Virus record (IMG/VR): IMGVR_UViG_3300039098_000049
Span: 1-27,088 of that record
Length of the DNA: 27,088 nt
Source: a virus
Direction: 5' to 3' (one strand)
Shown: positions 815 to 27,088 of the stretch, in pieces
Position numbering within the stretch: the stretch's first letter is position 1
Layout of the letters: every line of letters starts with the position of its first letter
The notes under the pieces: model-generated
The model's input: only the letters and a program-made list of their open reading frames with translations
Told to the model about the DNA's origin: nothing
Databases searched by the model: none
Translations under genes and position numbers: made by a program

Positions 815-1096
815 ATGAAGAAGAGTAAATATCGGGAAAATTATATTAGTAAAGAACAGTTGGAAGCAAATAGTTATGTAATAAAAGGTAGTGTGTTAAG
901 TTGGCATAATGGGATATTACCTAATGCTAATGAAATTATATTAGAAATTGAAAAAATAAAAAAGAAAGAAATAAAACTATGGATTGAAGTAATAGGCAAA
1001 TTAAGAACCATATCAATATATTTAATCAACGAGGAAACTAGAGATGCAACGTTTGAATTTTATAGAGATATATTAAATAAATGGGAGATAAAATGA
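815..1096 (+). CDS. Hypothetical 93-aa protein
   Basis: AGGAGG at 805-810 points to the ATG at 815. An in-frame TTG at 773 would extend the frame through the leader hairpin and has no ribosome binding site. The protein is mixed alpha/beta, with a central Lys/Glu-rich helix (EIEKIKKKEIKLWIEVIGKL) and a Trp-containing C-terminus. It has no membrane segment and I recognise no family. Its stop overlaps the start of the secreted HhH protein (ATGA at 1093-1096), so the two are translationally coupled and probably act in the same process. Confidence 0.7.
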   Translation: MKKSKYRENYISKEQLEANSYVIKGSVLSWHNGILPNANEIILEIEKIKKKEIKLWIEVIGKLRTISIYLINEETRDATFEFYRDILNKWEIK

Positions 1097-1710
1097 AAAG
1101 AATACTAACAATTTTAGCAATAGGATTAGCATTAACTATAACAGGCTCATTAGCTTATGCCTCAATACAATATGTGCTTAATAAAACTGTGCAAGAGAAT
1201 GTATTAGTAGGTGATACTACGGTATATAGTGAGGGATTAGTAATTGAGTTAATAGAGCATGACACATATCAATTAACGTTCTTAGATATCGAGGAAACTG
1301 ATACGCAACGCCACTACATCACATATACATATAGTTATGAGATATTAGTAAGTGGAATGAATATAGAGGTATCAAGTTTATCAAGTGATATAACAGTAAG
1401 CGATTTAACATATACGGACACGACTATATCAATCACGTTCAGTTTAAATCAGACAATGGAATTTGAGCAGGGTGATGTGATAAATGTGAGTTTCTATTTT
1501 GAGGCAGTAGAGCAAACAGCAGTAAATATAAATACAGCTACGATAGATGAGTTGGTTAGTGTTGGGTTTACAGAAAGTGAAGCAGGAGAGATAGTTGCAT
1601 TAACTTATAATGTGGCTGATCTAGTTGAATTATATAATTATATATACATATTTGACGCAATAACTAGGTTCGAGTCATTGGTAAATGATGGGACGATAGT
1701 GTTTGAATAA
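1093..1710 (+). CDS. Secreted protein with C-terminal ComEA-like helix-hairpin-helix
   Basis: I choose ATG 1093 (205 aa) over ATG 1081 because GGGAGA lies just upstream and it forms an ATGA overlap with the previous stop. Residues 1-23 form a classical signal peptide (KR, hydrophobic core, AYA cleavage motif). Residues 24-140 are beta-rich and Thr/Ser-rich, loosely like the TasA/camelysin-type sandwich of Bacillota, which is a weak impression only. Residues 144-200 (NINTATIDEL..., GFTESEAGEIVA, then ADLVELYNYIY) match the layout of the paired helix-hairpin-helix DNA-binding motif of competence protein ComEA. The expected GIG hairpin is degenerate (GFT). The gene is followed by a terminator, so it forms a short unit separate from the late operon. 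An extracellular DNA-binding or adhesion role is inference. Confidence 0.7.
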   Translation: MKRILTILAIGLALTITGSLAYASIQYVLNKTVQENVLVGDTTVYSEGLVIELIEHDTYQLTFLDIEETDTQRHYITYTYSYEILVSGMNIEVSSLSSDITVSDLTYTDTTISITFSLNQTMEFEQGDVINVSFYFEAVEQTAVNINTATIDELVSVGFTESEAGEIVALTYNVADLVELYNYIYIFDAITRFESLVNDGTIVFE

Positions 1711-1713
1711 TAT

Positions 1714-1744
1714 AGAGGAGTGACTACGGTTGCTCTTTTTATTT
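1714..1744 (+). terminator. Rho-independent terminator with UACG tetraloop
   Basis: GAGTGAC (1718-1724) pairs with GTTGCTC (1729-1735) around a TACG loop closed by C-G, an unusually stable UNCG tetraloop. TTTTTATTT follows. Upstream A/G bases can pair with the first T residues. It ends the 815-1710 unit. Confidence 0.8.
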
Positions 1745-1771
1745 GACTTTATGCGCATTTAATTGTATTCT
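1743..1771 (+). promoter_or_regulatory. Candidate late promoter (TTGACT-17-TATTCT)
   Basis: TTGACT at 1743-1748 lies directly after the terminator, and TATTCT at 1766-1771 is 17 bp downstream. TATACT at 1771-1776 is an alternative -10 with a poorer -35. It would start the packaging and structural operon near 1778. Confidence 0.5.
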
Positions 1772-1828: not shown

Positions 1829-1845
1829 AAAACGAGGTGGATTAT

Positions 1846-2319
1846 ATGGCAATAGGTAAATATAAACAATGGTTAACAGAGGAAGCACTAATAGCTTTAT
1901 CTACTTGGGCTAAGTTAGGATTAACTGATGAAAATATAGCACATAATATGGGAATCAATGTTTCTACACTATATGTGTGGAAGAATAAGTACAAAGATAT
2001 TAAAGAGGCCTTAACACACGCAAAAGCTATTGCAGATTCTATTGTTGAGAATTCACTATATAAAAGAGCTAATGGATTTAGTTATGATGAAGTAACAAGA
2101 GAAAACAAATTTAATCCAACTACTGAAGTGTATGAAATGATAACTACAAAGATAGTAACTAAAATGGTTATACCTGATACAACAGCCCAAATATACTGGT
2201 TGAAAAATAGAAAACAAGATATGTGGAGAGATAAACACGAAGTTAATATTAGTGGTAATGTAGAAATGAAAGGTTTACGAGATGACATCGCAAGATTTGG
2301 AATGAAAAATGAAGTTTAG
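1846..2319 (+). CDS. terS: Terminase small subunit
   Basis: This is the DNA-recognition subunit that brings the packaging site to the large terminase. GAGGTGG at 1834-1840 selects ATG 1846 (157 aa) over an in-frame GTG at 1837 that lies inside this site. Residues 24-50 (LGLTDENIAHNMGINVSTLY...) form a helix-turn-helix. The C-terminal part carries the IYWLKNRKQDMWRDK signature seen in many Bacillota phage small terminases, where a WLKNR..WxDK segment follows the oligomerisation region. It overlaps the large subunit gene by 11 bp, the usual arrangement. Confidence 0.88.
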   Translation: MAIGKYKQWLTEEALIALSTWAKLGLTDENIAHNMGINVSTLYVWKNKYKDIKEALTHAKAIADSIVENSLYKRANGFSYDEVTRENKFNPTTEVYEMITTKIVTKMVIPDTTAQIYWLKNRKQDMWRDKHEVNISGNVEMKGLRDDIARFGMKNEV

Positions 2320-3676
2320 TGATATTGTATTAAATGATAAACATTATGATATCTTAAACGATGAAACACAAATCATCTTTGCCGAAGGAGTTACTAATTC
2401 GGGGAAATCATTAATACTAGGGTTTAAGTTCTTTCAACATATTCTTAGATCCAGTAAAGAAGAAAATCAATTTATGATAGCAGGGCAATCCGTACCAGTT
2501 ATAGAAAAGATGTATATACAAAATGAATCATCATTCTATAATATGTTTCCACCATTATGTGAATATAGTAGAGGTGGACAAGGTGGTGCTAAAATTACAG
2601 TACAAGCAAACACTGGGCCTAAATTTATTTACTTAGTAGGGTATGACAACGCTAAAAGATGGAAAGATATATTAGGGTTAAAGATAAATGGTTCATTGGT
2701 AGAAGAAATAAACATAGCTAACGATGAGTTCATATCAGAATTATTTATGAGAACATTTAGAAACAGTGGGTTTCTATTAGCTTCATCAAACGGAGCAGAC
2801 CCAGATACATATGTTTATACTGAGTATCTAGATAAAGGTAGGCCATTAGAAAAATATACAGATCAAGTTCCTGATAGCACATGGGAATGTTTAAATAGAG
2901 CAAAAGCATCAAGTAGATACCGTTATTACTTTTTTACATTTGCAGATAATGGAACAATGAAACAATCAGAGATAGATGCATTATTAGAGGAAACACCAGA
3001 AGGGTCATGGATGTGGTTAACTAAGATACTAGGAGAACGTGGTATTAGAGAAGGTGCTGTATTTGCTGACTATATGACATATGCGAAGAACATGATTAAA
3101 TGGTCTAGTATATTCCCTAATAATAGAACATCAGATTACCCATTTGTTAAATACACAATAGGTATAGATGTAGGAGCAGAAGACTATACAGTATTCACAT
3201 TAAATGGATTTACATTAGGGTATCAACATCAAGTAGTAATAGATTATGTAAAAATCAATCACGCAGGTACTGAGGAAATATGGACAGCATTTAAGAATTG
3301 GTATGACCCATATGACTATATAGTAAGCGGATATATGCATGGTGCATTTATAGACTATGCAGGTGGTGGTGCAATCGTTAAGTTATCTATCCATGATAAA
3401 CTTAAAAAGAAATATGGTATACAAATAGTTAATGCATTTAAATATCGTATACGGGAACGTTGTGATGTAGGTATTAAGTTATTACATCAAGGTCGGTTAG
3501 TATTTACTGATAGGTCAGAAGACATATACAAAGCATTTACTAAGGCTTTTTATAATGACAAACGAGAAAAAGAAGGAAAAGATATTAGGGATTTCAAATC
3601 TCATATCAATAAAGATTATGTAGATGCCACAGAATATGGCACAAGTCCTTTCATGAAACATATGATAGCCAAGTAA
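2309..3676 (+). CDS. terL: Terminase large subunit (ATPase and nuclease)
   Basis: This is the packaging motor that translocates DNA into the prohead and cuts the concatemer. Its 455 aa is normal for the family. Walker A is GVTNSGKS at residues 27-34 and a Walker B-like GSLVEE lies at 128-133. The C-terminal RNase H-like nuclease begins with IGIDVGAEDYTVF, whose first acidic residue is D287. A second acidic site is in FIDYAGGG, and the last is in YVDATEYG (D439). The ATG lies within the end of the small subunit gene, so translation is coupled. The order terS-terL-portal supports the call. The overall pattern resembles PBSX/SPP1-type large terminases. Confidence 0.93.
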   Translation: MKFSDIVLNDKHYDILNDETQIIFAEGVTNSGKSLILGFKFFQHILRSSKEENQFMIAGQSVPVIEKMYIQNESSFYNMFPPLCEYSRGGQGGAKITVQANTGPKFIYLVGYDNAKRWKDILGLKINGSLVEEINIANDEFISELFMRTFRNSGFLLASSNGADPDTYVYTEYLDKGRPLEKYTDQVPDSTWECLNRAKASSRYRYYFFTFADNGTMKQSEIDALLEETPEGSWMWLTKILGERGIREGAVFADYMTYAKNMIKWSSIFPNNRTSDYPFVKYTIGIDVGAEDYTVFTLNGFTLGYQHQVVIDYVKINHAGTEEIWTAFKNWYDPYDYIVSGYMHGAFIDYAGGGAIVKLSIHDKLKKKYGIQIVNAFKYRIRERCDVGIKLLHQGRLVFTDRSEDIYKAFTKAFYNDKREKEGKDIRDFKSHINKDYVDATEYGTSPFMKHMIAK

Positions 3677-14330: not shown

Positions 14331-14975
14331 ATGGCAGTACAAGGAATAACAACAGAAGGCGAACAAGAATTGTTTTTAAACGGTTGGACTTCAATCGTAA
14401 CATGGGCAAAATTATATACAGATGCAGATGTAGAAGTAGATGAACAAACAGTAACGTTAGTATGGGATGGAACAAACGAAAATATGAAACTTACAGCAGA
14501 TGTGGTATTTGATGTAACAGGTGGAACTAACAATGTAGAATATGTTAAGTTTGGGTATACAAGTGGTAGTGATATAGTTGTGTTTACAGAAATATTTTCA
14601 ACGTTATATGATTTTAGTACAACAGGGACACTAACGCTAGATTATGGATATTTCTATATAAGTGGAACTTCAATATCAACAGCAGGTGAAGAAGAACTAG
14701 CAGACAATGGATTTGAAACAATAGTAACTGCAAAACTTTATACAACAGGTTCAGCAGTATTATTAGATACACAAACAGTTAGTTTTACAGCCGAAAGTGG
14801 TGATTTGAGTTTAGATGACTCTATTGTATTTGATGTAGCAAGTGGGATCCCATACTCAATACAATTATTTAATACAGGTGGAGATAACTTATATCAAAGA
14901 GTATTTGATTCAGCAATAGATGAATTTACAACACCGGGAACATTAACAGTTGATACTTGGGTGTTTAGCTTCTAA
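14331..14975 (+). CDS. Tail-associated protein with two tandem homologous domains
   Basis: TAGGAGGAAA precedes ATG 14331. The 214-aa product is made of two ~105-residue copies. Copy 1 runs from ITTEGEQELFLNGWTSIVTW to GTLTLDYGYFYI; copy 2 runs from ISTAGEEELADNGFETIVTA to GTLTVDTWVFSF. Matching landmarks are [T/A]GE[QE]EL, AKLYT, DTQTVSF/EQTVTLV, VVFDV/IVFDV, and STTGTLT/TTPGTLT. Both are beta-rich. It sits between hub and fibre, so a fibre adaptor, baseplate wedge or virion decoration role is likely, but I recognise no family. Its TAA overlaps the next ATG by one base. Confidence 0.68.
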   Translation: MAVQGITTEGEQELFLNGWTSIVTWAKLYTDADVEVDEQTVTLVWDGTNENMKLTADVVFDVTGGTNNVEYVKFGYTSGSDIVVFTEIFSTLYDFSTTGTLTLDYGYFYISGTSISTAGEEELADNGFETIVTAKLYTTGSAVLLDTQTVSFTAESGDLSLDDSIVFDVASGIPYSIQLFNTGGDNLYQRVFDSAIDEFTTPGTLTVDTWVFSF

Positions 14976-19685: not shown

Positions 19686-20294
19686 ATGAATTTTATAATA
19701 TATGTCCACAAAAATAAAATAAATGGTAAATGTTATGTTGGTGTTACCTCTACAACTACACAATTAAGGTGGGGGAAACAAGGTTCTAAATATTTAGGGC
19801 AACCAAAATTTGCTAACGCTATAATGAAATATGGTTGGGACAATTTTGAGCATATCATTTTAGAAGAAACCAATAACGAAAATGAGGCAGACATATTAGA
19901 AAGAGAATATGTATTAAAATTTAATTCTTTTAAAAACGGATACAACTCAACTACTGGTGGGTATAAAAATTTCAAAATTTCAGAAGAAGCAAAGAAAAAG
20001 ATTTCAAATACTATGAAAGGTGTGCCAAAACCTAAAAAACTTATGGAAAACTTATGGGAATTAAGAAATCATTACTGGAATAATGGTGGTATTGAAAAAC
20101 AAAGAGAATTTGCAAAAGGGAATACTTATGGAAATAAAAAAATTATGGTATATGATACATTTACAGAAACAGATATGATATATCCATCTATAAAAACTTT
20201 TTGTGAAGAAGTTGGGTTAGGGCATCATTTAGTAATTAGTGCAAAATATGCACAATGTAAAGCAGGTAGTAGATATTATATAGAAAATGTTTAA
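19686..20294 (+). CDS. GIY-YIG homing endonuclease (free-standing)
   Basis: A 202-aa protein with TTTGGAGA before ATG 19686. The nuclease motif is IYV (5-7) ... YVG (17-19), followed by an Arg (R28), KYG/DNFEHIILEE, and a catalytic-type acidic site LEREY (71-75) leading into NGYNSTTGG (84-92). Residues ~98-115 (ISEEAKKKISNTMKG) are a NUMOD3-like DNA-binding element. The C-terminus (KKIMVYD..., YPSIKTFCEEVGLG) resembles the NUMOD1/IENR1 helix-turn-helix. Such mobile genes cut intron-less or gene-less alleles and spread by repair. No intron structure is recognised around it, so it appears as an intergenic insertion after the fibre gene. Confidence 0.87.
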   Translation: MNFIIYVHKNKINGKCYVGVTSTTTQLRWGKQGSKYLGQPKFANAIMKYGWDNFEHIILEETNNENEADILEREYVLKFNSFKNGYNSTTGGYKNFKISEEAKKKISNTMKGVPKPKKLMENLWELRNHYWNNGGIEKQREFAKGNTYGNKKIMVYDTFTETDMIYPSIKTFCEEVGLGHHLVISAKYAQCKAGSRYYIENV

Positions 20295-20385: not shown

Positions 20386-20913
20386 ATGAACAATGCAAAA
20401 AAAAGGAGTAAAAAATACTCTACAACTATTAAAAGATATAATACTGATAAAGTTGAACAAGGTGATTTATATTATCTTAATAATAAAGGTGGGTTCAGTA
20501 AGAAAGATAGAATGAATGTAAAGGTAAATGGTATAGCAGTCAAAACATATCTATCATTATATGAGGACTTACAACAAGTTAAGCGAGATGCTGACTTATA
20601 TTTAAACACCCAAAATCAAGCCCTCACAGAGTTTTTAATCTCAAAAGGTCTAATTACACCTAATGTAGATTTAAATGCTCTCATAGGAGATTTATCAAAG
20701 TTATTAGTGGTCGTACCTAGCAAGTCCTATGACCTTTTACAGAAAGATAGTAATGGATATATTGTCAGTAAAACTGAAATCAATGGTAGTATAATTGATA
20801 GACCTATAGAATACCCAGTTGATTTACTACACGGATATACTAGAGAGATTAATGGAAAGTTTATTGATGATGAAGTTAAGAAAAATGAAATATTAAGTGG
20901 GGGTATGTTCTAA
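20386..20913 (+). CDS. Hypothetical 175-aa protein, late operon
   Basis: AAGGAG precedes ATG 20386. The N-terminus is very basic (NNAKKRSKKYSTTIKRY). A central helical region follows (YLSLYEDLQQVKRDADLYL, then LTEFLISKGLITPN), and the C-terminal part is mixed (VVVPSKSYDLLQKDSNGYI). No membrane segment and no recognised family. The gene begins with an A8 tract (20397-20404) in a 14-base stretch identical to the start of the fibre gene. It is linked by a TAATG overlap to the next, membrane-protein gene, so an accessory virion or lysis/egress function is possible but unproven. Confidence 0.65.
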   Translation: MNNAKKRSKKYSTTIKRYNTDKVEQGDLYYLNNKGGFSKKDRMNVKVNGIAVKTYLSLYEDLQQVKRDADLYLNTQNQALTEFLISKGLITPNVDLNALIGDLSKLLVVVPSKSYDLLQKDSNGYIVSKTEINGSIIDRPIEYPVDLLHGYTREINGKFIDDEVKKNEILSGGMF

Positions 20914-21293
20914 TGATGGAAATGTTAAGTGGAATTAAAGATAGTATAATAGAATACTGGCCAGTAGTAGTTGCCTTTGTAATTGCTGTAGGTGGTTTTG
21001 TAGGTATAGCCTATGTTACATTCACACAAGCCCAAGCCATAGTTCAACCTATACTTGATAAGATACAAGGCTTTAGAGATAAAGATGATGAAGATAAAAG
21101 TGTTGCTAGTGTACTTGAAAGTATTAATATAGAAAGTATGAAAGCAGATTTACTTTATAAGATACAAAATACAAGTGTATCACCTGAATTAACATTAGTA
21201 TATCAAACTCAATTAGATAGATTAATGTCTATAACGGATAAAACTGCCACTACTATAAATGATTTAACTGATAAAGCAGATACATATTTATAG
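20913..21293 (+). CDS. Single-pass membrane protein, holin-like position
   Basis: A 126-aa protein starting in a TAATG overlap. One hydrophobic segment lies at about residues 16-38 (YWPVVVAFVIAVGGFVGIAY), followed by a long charged, partly coiled-coil domain (FRDKDDEDKSVASVLESI). The topology, with a short N-terminus, one helix and an acidic cytoplasmic-type tail, resembles phage hemolysin XhlA/holin-associated or similar accessory proteins, but no family is clear. Its position at the end of the late operon, where release genes normally lie, is the main hint. Confidence 0.55.
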   Translation: MMEMLSGIKDSIIEYWPVVVAFVIAVGGFVGIAYVTFTQAQAIVQPILDKIQGFRDKDDEDKSVASVLESINIESMKADLLYKIQNTSVSPELTLVYQTQLDRLMSITDKTATTINDLTDKADTYL

Positions 21294-21329
21294 TATTAAT
21301 TTAAAAATATTTTACAAGGGAGTACAAGA

Positions 21330-21713
21330 ATGATTAAAAGAATATTTAGAATATTAGGATTGTTATTTACTTATGTATCACCATTTATTATAGTGTATTT
21401 AAATCACGCTGTATTAGTTAGTGGTGGCACAGATATTGACACAATCGGTTTGATAATTGTACTTGGTACATTTGTAGGTATAATACGATTTATTGAGCAT
21501 AAGATTAAAGTTTACGAAATACAAGATAAGAATAAAATGTTCTTAGTGATGTGGAATGGTAGTAAAAGAATTGTGTTTGCTATAGGTCTATGGTGGCTAA
21601 TGGTTACTATTGAGGCTAACGTAGATAAATTAGTATTGACATTGCAACTACTTACTGTTACATTTATGATTGGTTTATTCTTTAATGTGTTGGGTAATAG
21701 AAAAAGTAAATAA
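21330..21713 (+). CDS. Polytopic membrane protein at the end of the late operon
   Basis: AAGGGAG precedes ATG 21330. The 127 aa contain about four hydrophobic segments (near 7-30, 37-54, 80-95 and 100-120), with basic loops (HKIKVYEIQDKNK, NGSKR) and a basic C-terminus (LGNRKSK). Size and topology fit a holin, but similar small proteins have other roles. It is the last + strand gene before the convergent terminator. No lysin gene lies next to it. Confidence 0.55.
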   Translation: MIKRIFRILGLLFTYVSPFIIVYLNHAVLVSGGTDIDTIGLIIVLGTFVGIIRFIEHKIKVYEIQDKNKMFLVMWNGSKRIVFAIGLWWLMVTIEANVDKLVLTLQLLTVTFMIGLFFNVLGNRKSK

Positions 21714-23488: not shown

Positions 23489-23734
23489 TTAATCACTCTC
23501 CGTTATAATCATATTAACTTTAAATGATATTAAATCAGCGCATAACATTCTAGTAGTCCCATCTTCGCTATCAACCTCTACCCAATCGTGATTTCTTAAA
23601 CTTAGTTGATAATCAACATTCCCACTATTATGATACATTGCAAAGTCTTTATTATCTTTTTGTTTATCATTATTCCCACACCCACTAAGCGTTAATGTAA
23701 GTGCTAGTAATATAACTAATAATATCTTTTTCAT
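23489..23734 (-). CDS. Small lipoprotein
   Basis: AGGAGGAAAT precedes the start at 23734. The 81-aa product has a lipoprotein signal: KK, a Leu/Ile/Thr core, and lipobox LSGC with the modified Cys at residue 19, followed by an Asn/Asp/Lys linker (NNDKQKDNKD) and a ~50-residue beta-rich domain (YQLSLRNHDWVEVDSEDG). It would be anchored on the outer face of the membrane. Phage lipoproteins often block superinfection, but nothing in the sequence proves that. It lies in the early-type operon, just ahead of the 53-aa gene. Confidence 0.72.
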   Translation of the reverse strand: MKKILLVILLALTLTLSGCGNNDKQKDNKDFAMYHNSGNVDYQLSLRNHDWVEVDSEDGTTRMLCADLISFKVNMIITESD

Positions 23735-25126: not shown

Positions 25127-26029
25127 CTACATCAAATCAAAAATGCTTATCTGATTTATTTCTAATTTTAGTGTTGACATATCAAACTCATTTATAAACC
25201 AAGTATAACTGTCGTTTTGTTTTTGGTTTTCTATTTCATCATCAAAGTCATTATAATTTTTATAATAATAGTCTTTAGACTTTTTCATATAATCTTTATC
25301 ACCTAACTCTTTAAAGAACAAATAACATCTTGCAACAATACCTTTTGGGTGTAGATAGTCTTTCATATCTCTTTGCCCTTTTTCGTATATTGGATATGGT
25401 TGTTGTATAAACTTTATTTTCTTTTTAAATTTCTTATCTAACACAAAACCATATCTATAAGTCTTAACTTTAAATGGTTCAAGTTTGTTATCAAAAAACA
25501 ATCTATTTAACATTAACATTCTAGTTGGTCTTTTAGAGTTTGTAAATGGTATTTCGTGGTGTGATATATCTTTTTCTTTCTCATAAAAGAATGTTGTTTC
25601 GGTATAACCATAGTAATTAAAACTACTTGCTTTATATATTGTACCACAACCTAATCTACCATCAGCAAATGTTTGTATAACCTTTATATGTGGGTGGTCT
25701 TTTCTAAGTATCTTAAAGGTTGCTGACATAAATATTGTTTCAGCGTTATGGCCTAATTCATCATCAATCCATAGCCTATTCAACTCAACAACTTGACCCT
25801 CTACTAACTCATCACACCAATTTTTGTATGATTTTGGTTGCATTAAGTTCCCATACACAGCAACACCAAGTATTCTGCGACCTCTAAATATACCAAAATT
25901 AACCTTTCCAAATGATGTATTCCATTTTTTAGAGTAATGATTTTTAATGGTTATATCTTTTGCTTGAATATAAGAGATTTCTTTTATAATTAACTCACCC
26001 ATTAGTTTACTTTGTTTTGTTACTATCAC
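25127..26029 (-). CDS. Mom-family DNA adenine modification protein
   Basis: A 300-aa protein with GTG start at 26029 (GAGAGGG upstream); the ATG nine codons later has no ribosome binding site. Mom of phage Mu converts adenine in DNA to a bulky carbamoylmethyl form that blocks many restriction enzymes. The core pattern of that GNAT-like family is visible: HYSKKW (31-36), GVAVYGNL (55-62), ELNRLWI (82-88), and FADGRLGCGTIYKASSFNYY (121-140). The C-terminal part (YRYGFVLDKKFKKKIKFIQQ, then PYPIYEKG) also fits longer Mom-like proteins. The last ~80 residues are a charged extension. It lies between helicase and small-gene cluster, so it is probably made early. Confidence 0.83.
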   Translation of the reverse strand: MIVTKQSKLMGELIIKEISYIQAKDITIKNHYSKKWNTSFGKVNFGIFRGRRILGVAVYGNLMQPKSYKNWCDELVEGQVVELNRLWIDDELGHNAETIFMSATFKILRKDHPHIKVIQTFADGRLGCGTIYKASSFNYYGYTETTFFYEKEKDISHHEIPFTNSKRPTRMLMLNRLFFDNKLEPFKVKTYRYGFVLDKKFKKKIKFIQQPYPIYEKGQRDMKDYLHPKGIVARCYLFFKELGDKDYMKKSKDYYYKNYNDFDDEIENQKQNDSYTWFINEFDMSTLKLEINQISIFDLM

Positions 26030-26044
26030 ATAATCGCCCTCTCT

Positions 26045-27088
26045 TTAGAATGGTAAATCAGGTATTGTGTTTTCTTTAACCTTACCAAATTCTTCTTGCT
26101 CTACTATTTCAAATCTACTCATTTCCATATTCCATTTTTTTTCTATAAATCTCACATAATCACCCTCAAACCCATAATTAACATCACCTAACATACCATC
26201 TCTATTCTTTCTAACAAACATTTTAATAAATCTTTCACCTTTAAATACTTGGTCTATATCATCAGTATGTAGCATTAAAACTATATTACTGTCTTGTTCC
26301 AAACTTCCTGAATCTCTTAAATCACTCAATACAGGTTTTCTAGGTTTACCTTGTTCTATACTACCTCTACTTAATTGAGATAACGCTATAACAGGTATAT
26401 CAAGTTCCATAGCAAGTTGTTTAAGCATTTGAGATATATATGATACTTGATTTTGCTTTTGATTTCTATATTGATTACTTGTAAGCAACTGTAAATAATC
26501 TATTACCAATATATCTAATTCCCCTTTTTTCTTTAAATGTTTAGCGAAACCAACTAATTGTTCTATTGACATACCACCTTTATCGTAAAAGTTAAATTTA
26601 AACTTTCGTATATCCTCTTTAGCCCTCATAATGTTAGCCCAATCTTTTGAAGAAAGACCCTCTTTACGCTTTATAGATTGAGCCTTAACTCCACCCATAT
26701 TAGCAACTAATCTATTCATAAACTCTTTTCTATTCATTTCTAACGATACAAATAATGGGTGCTTACCTTGTAAACAAAAGTTCTTAACTAGGTTAAGTGC
26801 AAAGGCACTCTTTCCAACACTAGGTCTAGCACCTATCAACATTAGATTAGTCTTTTCTAATAACACTAATTTATCTAATTCTTTATAACCTAATTTAAAT
26901 TGTTCAATAGGAGTATCATCTTCTAAATTCTCAACCCAAGTATCAATATAAGAACCAAATTCCTCATATTCAAGGTTAGATGAAATCCCCATATTAGTTA
27001 TAGCACTTTCAACCTCTTTTACGAGTTCAACTGAGGCTATACCACTTAAATCTCTACTAACTCTTTTTAGATATAATTTATATAATAC
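26045..27088 (-). CDS. dnaB: DnaB-type replicative helicase, 5' end outside the window
   Basis: The frame is open to the last base, so the gene is cut. Another 32 codons lie before the internal ATG at 26992, including a helical stretch (LYLKRVSRDLSGIASVELVK) fitting the linker after the DnaB N-terminal domain. Counted from that ATG, the motifs are Walker A GARPSVGKS (54-62), LEMN (84-87), Walker B ILVIDYLQLL (161-170), the ALSQLSRG motif (203-210), LSDLRDSGSLEQDSN (222-236) and a C-terminal Arg-containing FVRKNRDG. This is the RecA-like hexameric helicase that unwinds DNA at the phage fork. It starts the visible - strand operon, followed 15 bp later by the Mom-like gene. Confidence 0.92.
   Translation of the reverse strand, partial: VLYKLYLKRVSRDLSGIASVELVKEVESAITNMGISSNLEYEEFGSYIDTWVENLEDDTPIEQFKLGYKELDKLVLLEKTNLMLIGARPSVGKSAFALNLVKNFCLQGKHPLFVSLEMNRKEFMNRLVANMGGVKAQSIKRKEGLSSKDWANIMRAKEDIRKFKFNFYDKGGMSIEQLVGFAKHLKKKGELDILVIDYLQLLTSNQYRNQKQNQVSYISQMLKQLAMELDIPVIALSQLSRGSIEQGKPRKPVLSDLRDSGSLEQDSNIVLMLHTDDIDQVFKGERFIKMFVRKNRDGMLGDVNYGFEGDYVRFIEKKWNMEMSRFEIVEQEEFGKVKENTIPDLPF

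Follow-up and report, generated by a model that had tools for sequence, protein, structure and literature searches.

The photosystem II subunit PsbU is an exported protein in which a helix-hairpin-helix (HhH) fold related to that of ComEA serves protein contacts. ComEA itself is the DNA-uptake receptor of Gram-positive bacteria, represented by the families PF12836 (HHH_3) and TIGR00426 and by the structures PDB 8dss, 8dfk, and 2duy. In the B. subtilis protein, K164 is better conserved than any other residue studied, and the K164A substitution lowers transformation more than 100-fold (PMC9747964). Exported phage proteins with a role in exclusion have precedents in Llp of phage T5 (PMC9586334) and in Ltp of phage TP-J34 (PMC3952083). 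No phage-encoded exported protein of the ComEA type was found in the limited, open-access literature that we searched, in keeping with an initial annotation of the DNA described here, which named no described system that fits.

Here we report on P0001, a gene in a linear 27-kb IMG/VR virus record (IMGVR_UViG_3300039098_000049, positions 1 to 27,088), the whole of which is referred to below as the window. The gene recurs upstream of the packaging genes in divergent phages, and its product ends in a domain of probable ComEA-type ancestry that has lost residues used by ComEA for DNA contact. The fold, the placement, and this loss are better supported than the function, for which we tentatively propose a protein-contacting role at the host envelope.

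Results

The P0001 gene and its transcriptional context

The P0001 reading frame is intact (Table 1), and its 205-residue product begins with a basic segment and some 15 hydrophobic residues, continues through a beta-rich middle, and ends in helices. Comparison with the closest relatives gave dN/dS values of 0.13-0.28, which shows purifying selection; because full-length homologues of 43-58% identity exist as well, we regard P0001 as a genuine protein gene. Constraint differs along the protein: in two of three comparisons the beta domain (dN/dS 0.14-0.17) is held more tightly than the HhH domain (0.41-0.45).

Translation of P0001 is probably coupled to that of the preceding reading frame, since start and stop codons overlap and a ribosome-binding site lies just upstream. 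Given this overlap, the promoter of its own with which the gene had initially been credited is not supported, and promoter-like sites are no commoner in the window than in shuffled sequences (7 observed, 10.9 in shuffles). A TATAAT-like box lies directly upstream of the copy in contig L017. The terminator proposed at the 3' end was borne out by its folding energy, and of the 11 loci, eight, most relatives among them, have a terminator closely 3' of the gene. The same order of terminator, promoter-like site, and terS recurs in L020, L042, and L096, where the promoter sequences are closer to consensus form (TTGACA-17-TATAAT in the first, TTGACT-18-TATAAT in the other two). Followed by a terminator and then by a promoter-like site for terS, P0001 closes the upstream transcription unit; it is thus a neighbour of the packaging genes by position, as annotated, but stands apart from the packaging unit.

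Table 1. Coordinates of P0001, its domains, and the adjoining features in the window
Feature	Position	Strand	Basis
Upstream ORF, 93 aa, no family match; TGA overlaps the P0001 ATG (ATGA)	815..1096	+	sequence, family scans
Ribosome-binding site GGGAG, 5 nt before ATG 1093	1083..1087	+	read from sequence
Gene P0001, 205-aa exported-type protein	1093..1710	+	ORF call, homologues
Signal peptide or N-terminal anchor, residues 1-21, possible cleavage before Y22	1093..1155	+	homologue alignment, crude hydropathy
Beta-rich domain, residues 24-140	1162..1512	+	low-confidence model, fold search
Degenerate ComEA-type HhH domain (probable), residues 143-205, four helices	1519..1707	+	hhalign, AlphaFold2, Foldseek
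E163 codon, position of the ComEA DNA-contacting lysine K164	1579..1581	+	profile alignment, PMC9747964
Intrinsic terminator	1714..1739	+	-12.4 kcal/mol, z -4.5
Promoter-like site ahead of terS (TTGACT-17-TATTCT), a weak match taken singly	1743..1771	+	pattern, relatives
Terminase small subunit terS; start could be ATG 1846	1837..2319	+	phrog_309, E 9.7e-56
Terminase large subunit	2309..3676	+	family match, TerL alignment

Distribution and the slot before terS

Scans with one protein at a time (P0001, TerL, or TerS) retrieved no relatives; a TerL alignment search yielded 33 contigs with TerL proteins 47-76% identical. Full-length P0001 homologues stand upstream of terS in L020 (58% identity), L017 (54%, with a GT2 gene between homologue and terS), and L042 (43%). 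C-terminal parts of homologues occur at the contig ends of L029, L030, and L034, and further scans added L096, L097, L099, and L100. Ten other virus contigs thus carry P0001 relatives, all of them closely upstream of packaging genes, and the proximity to terS first read from the window alone recurs in related phages. These phages span three divergent terminase lineages. The terminases of the last four contigs (Terminase_3C and Terminase_3 in Pfam) are far removed from that of the window: TerL of L096 is 20% identical to it over part of its length, and that of L100 is more weakly similar. Despite such divergence, the gene again stands directly before terS.

Among 37 related records the gene is present in ten, once each, a count that is not a frequency because four of the ten were picked for carrying it and many of the others are fragments. 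Several relatives that hold the region lack the gene and have near terS either very acidic small lipoproteins (L018 401-880, L022 5-460, L038 1213-1557, and L039 1389-1733) or a GT2 glycosyltransferase (L025, L027, and L033). L100 has two such lipoprotein genes before terS (86-682 and 1123-1407), directly before its P0001 homologue. GT2 genes (PF00535, E 1e-16 to 1e-19 where scanned) lie beside terS or terL in L017 (950-1912), L034 (513-1484), L025-L028, L030, L032, L033, L035, and L036, and none does so in the window. A functional link between P0001 and GT2 was rejected, as the pairing is not constant among relatives, and a match of a neighbouring lipoprotein to the superinfection exclusion protein Cor (E 0.016) was set aside because it covers mainly the signal peptide. 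We read P0001 as an accessory gene on account of this partial presence and of its recurrence before terS across three terminase lineages.

A 128-nt block of 90% identity spans the gene start in L042 (35-161) and L096 (5-131). Since the terminases of these contigs are dissimilar, the block points to recent gene exchange, and it suggests recombination at the signal-peptide region between the two phages. The L096 copy (43-668) changes frame inside the HhH part, owing to a genuine frameshift or to an error in sequencing. Short nucleotide similarities at gene starts, such as that of window positions 1070-1112 to L100, were put down to an A-rich ribosome-binding sequence in common. A DNA pattern for [VIM]N[IM]NTAxxEL matched seven loci in viral contigs, none with a recognisable HhH protein, and the P0001 family had no match in genome contigs, phages, and plasmids, genomes being scanned by short peptide patterns.

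Elsewhere in the window, a strong Mom-like DNA modification protein (25127-26029, minus strand; PF25680, E 2.9e-57) shares 52.6% identity with a Lactococcus phage PMBT69 protein, and a DnaB-type helicase gene lies at 26045-26992. A homing endonuclease of the Group I intron endonuclease type (19686-20294, plus strand; TIGR01453, E 2.4e-16) lies between the tail genes and the last late genes. The tail-region protein at 14331-14975 (plus strand) has an apparent internal duplication, no family match, and a net charge of -13.1 per 100 residues, an acidity like that of P0001. A lysogenic-conversion gene was considered and set aside: neither the window nor the relatives of 34 and 35 kb, records that may be partial, contain a tyrosine integrase.

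Its place beside terS in three terminase lineages could make P0001 a virion or packaging component, and the tail-region protein is equally acidic. Such a role is nevertheless very improbable given the signal-type N-terminus, the terminator that separates P0001 from the packaging genes, and the absence of the gene from relatives in the same terminase clade.

Export signal and beta-rich middle

A signal peptide with an AYA cleavage site had been annotated at the N-terminus. Its first part stands: an export-type N-terminus, again a basic start and then about 15 hydrophobic residues, is found in every full-length homologue aligned. AYA, however, is not the conserved site in relatives, most of which have V-x-G and then Y in the cleavage region (S-L-A and then Y in the window protein), and cleavage, if any, is therefore likelier before Y22. 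An uncleaved N-terminal anchor may take the place of a cleaved signal, and we infer from these features that P0001 is exported or membrane-anchored in the host. The protein has no lipobox. A second exported-type protein of this phage, an 81-aa lipoprotein-like ORF at 23489-23734 (minus strand), has one.

The beta-rich middle initially described reappeared, at low confidence, in a full-length AlphaFold2 model (block means of 22-61 over residues 1-140). A fold search with this domain returned weak matches to Ig-like and cohesin-type sandwiches, too weak (E at least 0.24) for it to be placed with either. Residues 24-140 had no match to the ComEA regions in Pfam, NCBIfam, and PDB, and are not the ComEA oligomerisation domain.

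An exported-type, beta-rich, and acidic protein might also serve at the cell surface in ways unrelated to exclusion, for example by stabilising the envelope, aiding lysis or release, or mediating adhesion of the infected cell. The sandwich matches would suit this, as would the fact that Pfam and PHROGs recognised no lysis protein among the ORFs scanned. Those matches are insignificant, however, the gene is missing from many relatives and is therefore not a core lysis gene, and P0001 is distant from the putative membrane proteins at 20913-21713; we consider a surface role of this kind rather unlikely. Scans of window ORFs recognised no endolysin family (region 20386-21713, plus strand), and if the window is complete for lysis genes, the phage may have a novel lysis enzyme or a host without a normal wall.

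A C-terminal domain of probable ComEA-type ancestry

Within the window, only the C-terminus of P0001 matches HHH_3 (E 3.8e-5 for this record). Taken as a single sequence it matches weakly, scoring 17.4 bits (E 0.0049) against PF12836, with a curated cut-off of 27 bits, and 12.9 bits against TIGR00426, with a cut-off of 53.1 bits. The family profile, built from shallow alignments of 9-10 sequences, is clear: against seven known ComEA-type domains, hhalign gave a probability of 92% and a score of 36.3, about twice the best of 200 column-shuffled controls (17.9). Searched against PDB sequences, the profile matched EEPD1 (E 4e-5, two HhH stretches) and ComEA (E 1.9).

AlphaFold2, run on ten homologues, modelled the C-terminal domain with a pLDDT of 93 and helices at 151-156, 161-169, 177-184, and 189-198, which coincide with HhH positions. 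Sequence comparison picks up mainly the first HhH, the second appearing only as predicted helices. The top Foldseek matches in PDB were four PsbU chains, all weak (TM 0.58-0.65, probability 0.41-0.69, E 0.75-1.8). Profile comparison agrees with the original reading of NINTATIDEL as an HhH of the ComEA/HHH_3 type, and the predicted helices fit it.

Could NINTAT be coincidental, and the C-terminus an unrelated four-helix domain? The single-sequence scores lie below the curated cut-offs, no ComEA chain is among the Foldseek matches, and the motif is degraded in L020, L017, and L042. Yet the motif is found again in L029, L030, L034, L096, L097, L099, and L100, the profile score is double that of any shuffle, the helices are predicted where an HhH would have them, and the fold list is topped by PsbU, a member of the same superfamily. 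Coincidence is improbable in view of these points, and ComEA-type ancestry is probable, most strongly for the first HhH.

Loss of DNA-contact residues

The lysine that follows the first hairpin of ComEA, K164, aligns with E163 of P0001, and glutamate occupies this position in 10 of 10 family sequences. In the first HhH, G-[FL]-[TSN] stands in place of the hairpin pattern G-h-G, and no such motif occurs in the second. The HhH domain of the family contains 1-4 lysines or arginines and has a net charge of -6 to -11, whereas known HhH domains have 6-8 such residues and a net charge of -3 to +1. We at first read strong acidity as ruling out DNA binding but then gave it less weight, as the lipoproteins found at the same slot in related phages are even more acidic (about -20 to -26 per 100 residues in the four computed); charge by itself is a weak argument, since exported proteins other than P0001 are equally or more acidic in these phages. 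The site-specific changes, E163 and the lost hairpin glycines, are the stronger argument, and judging by them the P0001 HhH probably does not bind DNA as ComEA does.

These changes bear directly on the role put forward in the initial annotation, that of a secreted DNA-binding protein which, in the manner of ComEA, would work at the cell surface to capture, guide, or block DNA. HhH ancestry speaks for it, as does a layout in which an N-terminal signal or anchor precedes a middle domain and the HhH comes last, parallel to that of Gram-positive ComEA (PMC9747964). A glutamate at the key lysine throughout the family, hairpins without their glycines, few basic residues, and a middle without a match to the ComEA oligomerisation domain make DNA handling very unlikely. 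We give still less credence to a decoy, an exported, strongly acidic, charge-reversed mimic of ComEA or DNA that would tie up DNA-handling proteins of the host envelope (ComEA partners or envelope nucleases) and leave the infected cell unable to import DNA or cleave it at the membrane. With the DNA-touching residues either gone or replaced by acidic ones, P0001 more likely grips proteins at the host envelope than handles DNA.

Discussion

Our tentative preference is for an exported accessory protein that acts on the host envelope through protein contact, most plausibly in superinfection exclusion. P0001 would be made during infection from a gene that ends the transcription unit preceding the packaging genes, and its N-terminal signal would carry it across, or anchor it in, the host membrane. 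There it would present the beta-rich domain together with an HhH scaffold descended from that of a ComEA-like protein. With its DNA-contact residues lost, the scaffold may now be a protein-protein contact module, like the related domain of PsbU, through which P0001 would bind a component of the host envelope and alter the surface of the infected cell, so that a second phage would be kept out. Action on the host envelope is suggested by the lipoproteins and GT2 glycosyltransferases that keep the gene company near terS. Exclusion as the last step, taken on its own, is possible but somewhat doubtful, and P0001 had no family or structure match to known exclusion proteins. Computation supports the gene, its homologues, the HhH ancestry, the loss of DNA contacts, the terminator, and the common slot; export, protein binding, the target, and exclusion are inferred.

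If the envelope-acting reading is right, phages have repurposed the DNA-uptake domain of ComEA for an exported protein in which it does not bind DNA, and have passed the gene between otherwise different phages at one slot before the packaging genes. That slot, which in relatives also holds lipoproteins and GT2 genes, would then be a place to seek new envelope-acting genes in phage-phage competition.

Among known systems, ComEA shares with P0001 an N-terminal signal or anchor, a middle domain, and a C-terminal HhH starting with NINTAT. P0001 differs in being a phage gene, in its glutamate for the key lysine, its lost hairpin glycines, a second HhH unrecognisable by sequence, and a middle that is not the oligomerisation domain. 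EEPD1 (PDB 9yi2), which the family profile matched best among PDB sequences, is a protein of the endonuclease/exonuclease/phosphatase family and has only the HhH in common with P0001. T5 Llp, Ltp of TP-J34, and Cor are likewise small exported phage accessory proteins, and lipoprotein genes occupy the P0001 slot in relatives; these three are lipoproteins, whereas P0001 lacks a lipobox and shows no relation to them by sequence or family. PsbU is photosynthetic and has no beta-rich domain, and the weak scores carry no claim of orthology, but it gave the best Foldseek matches and, like P0001, combines an export-type protein with a ComEA-related HhH fold.
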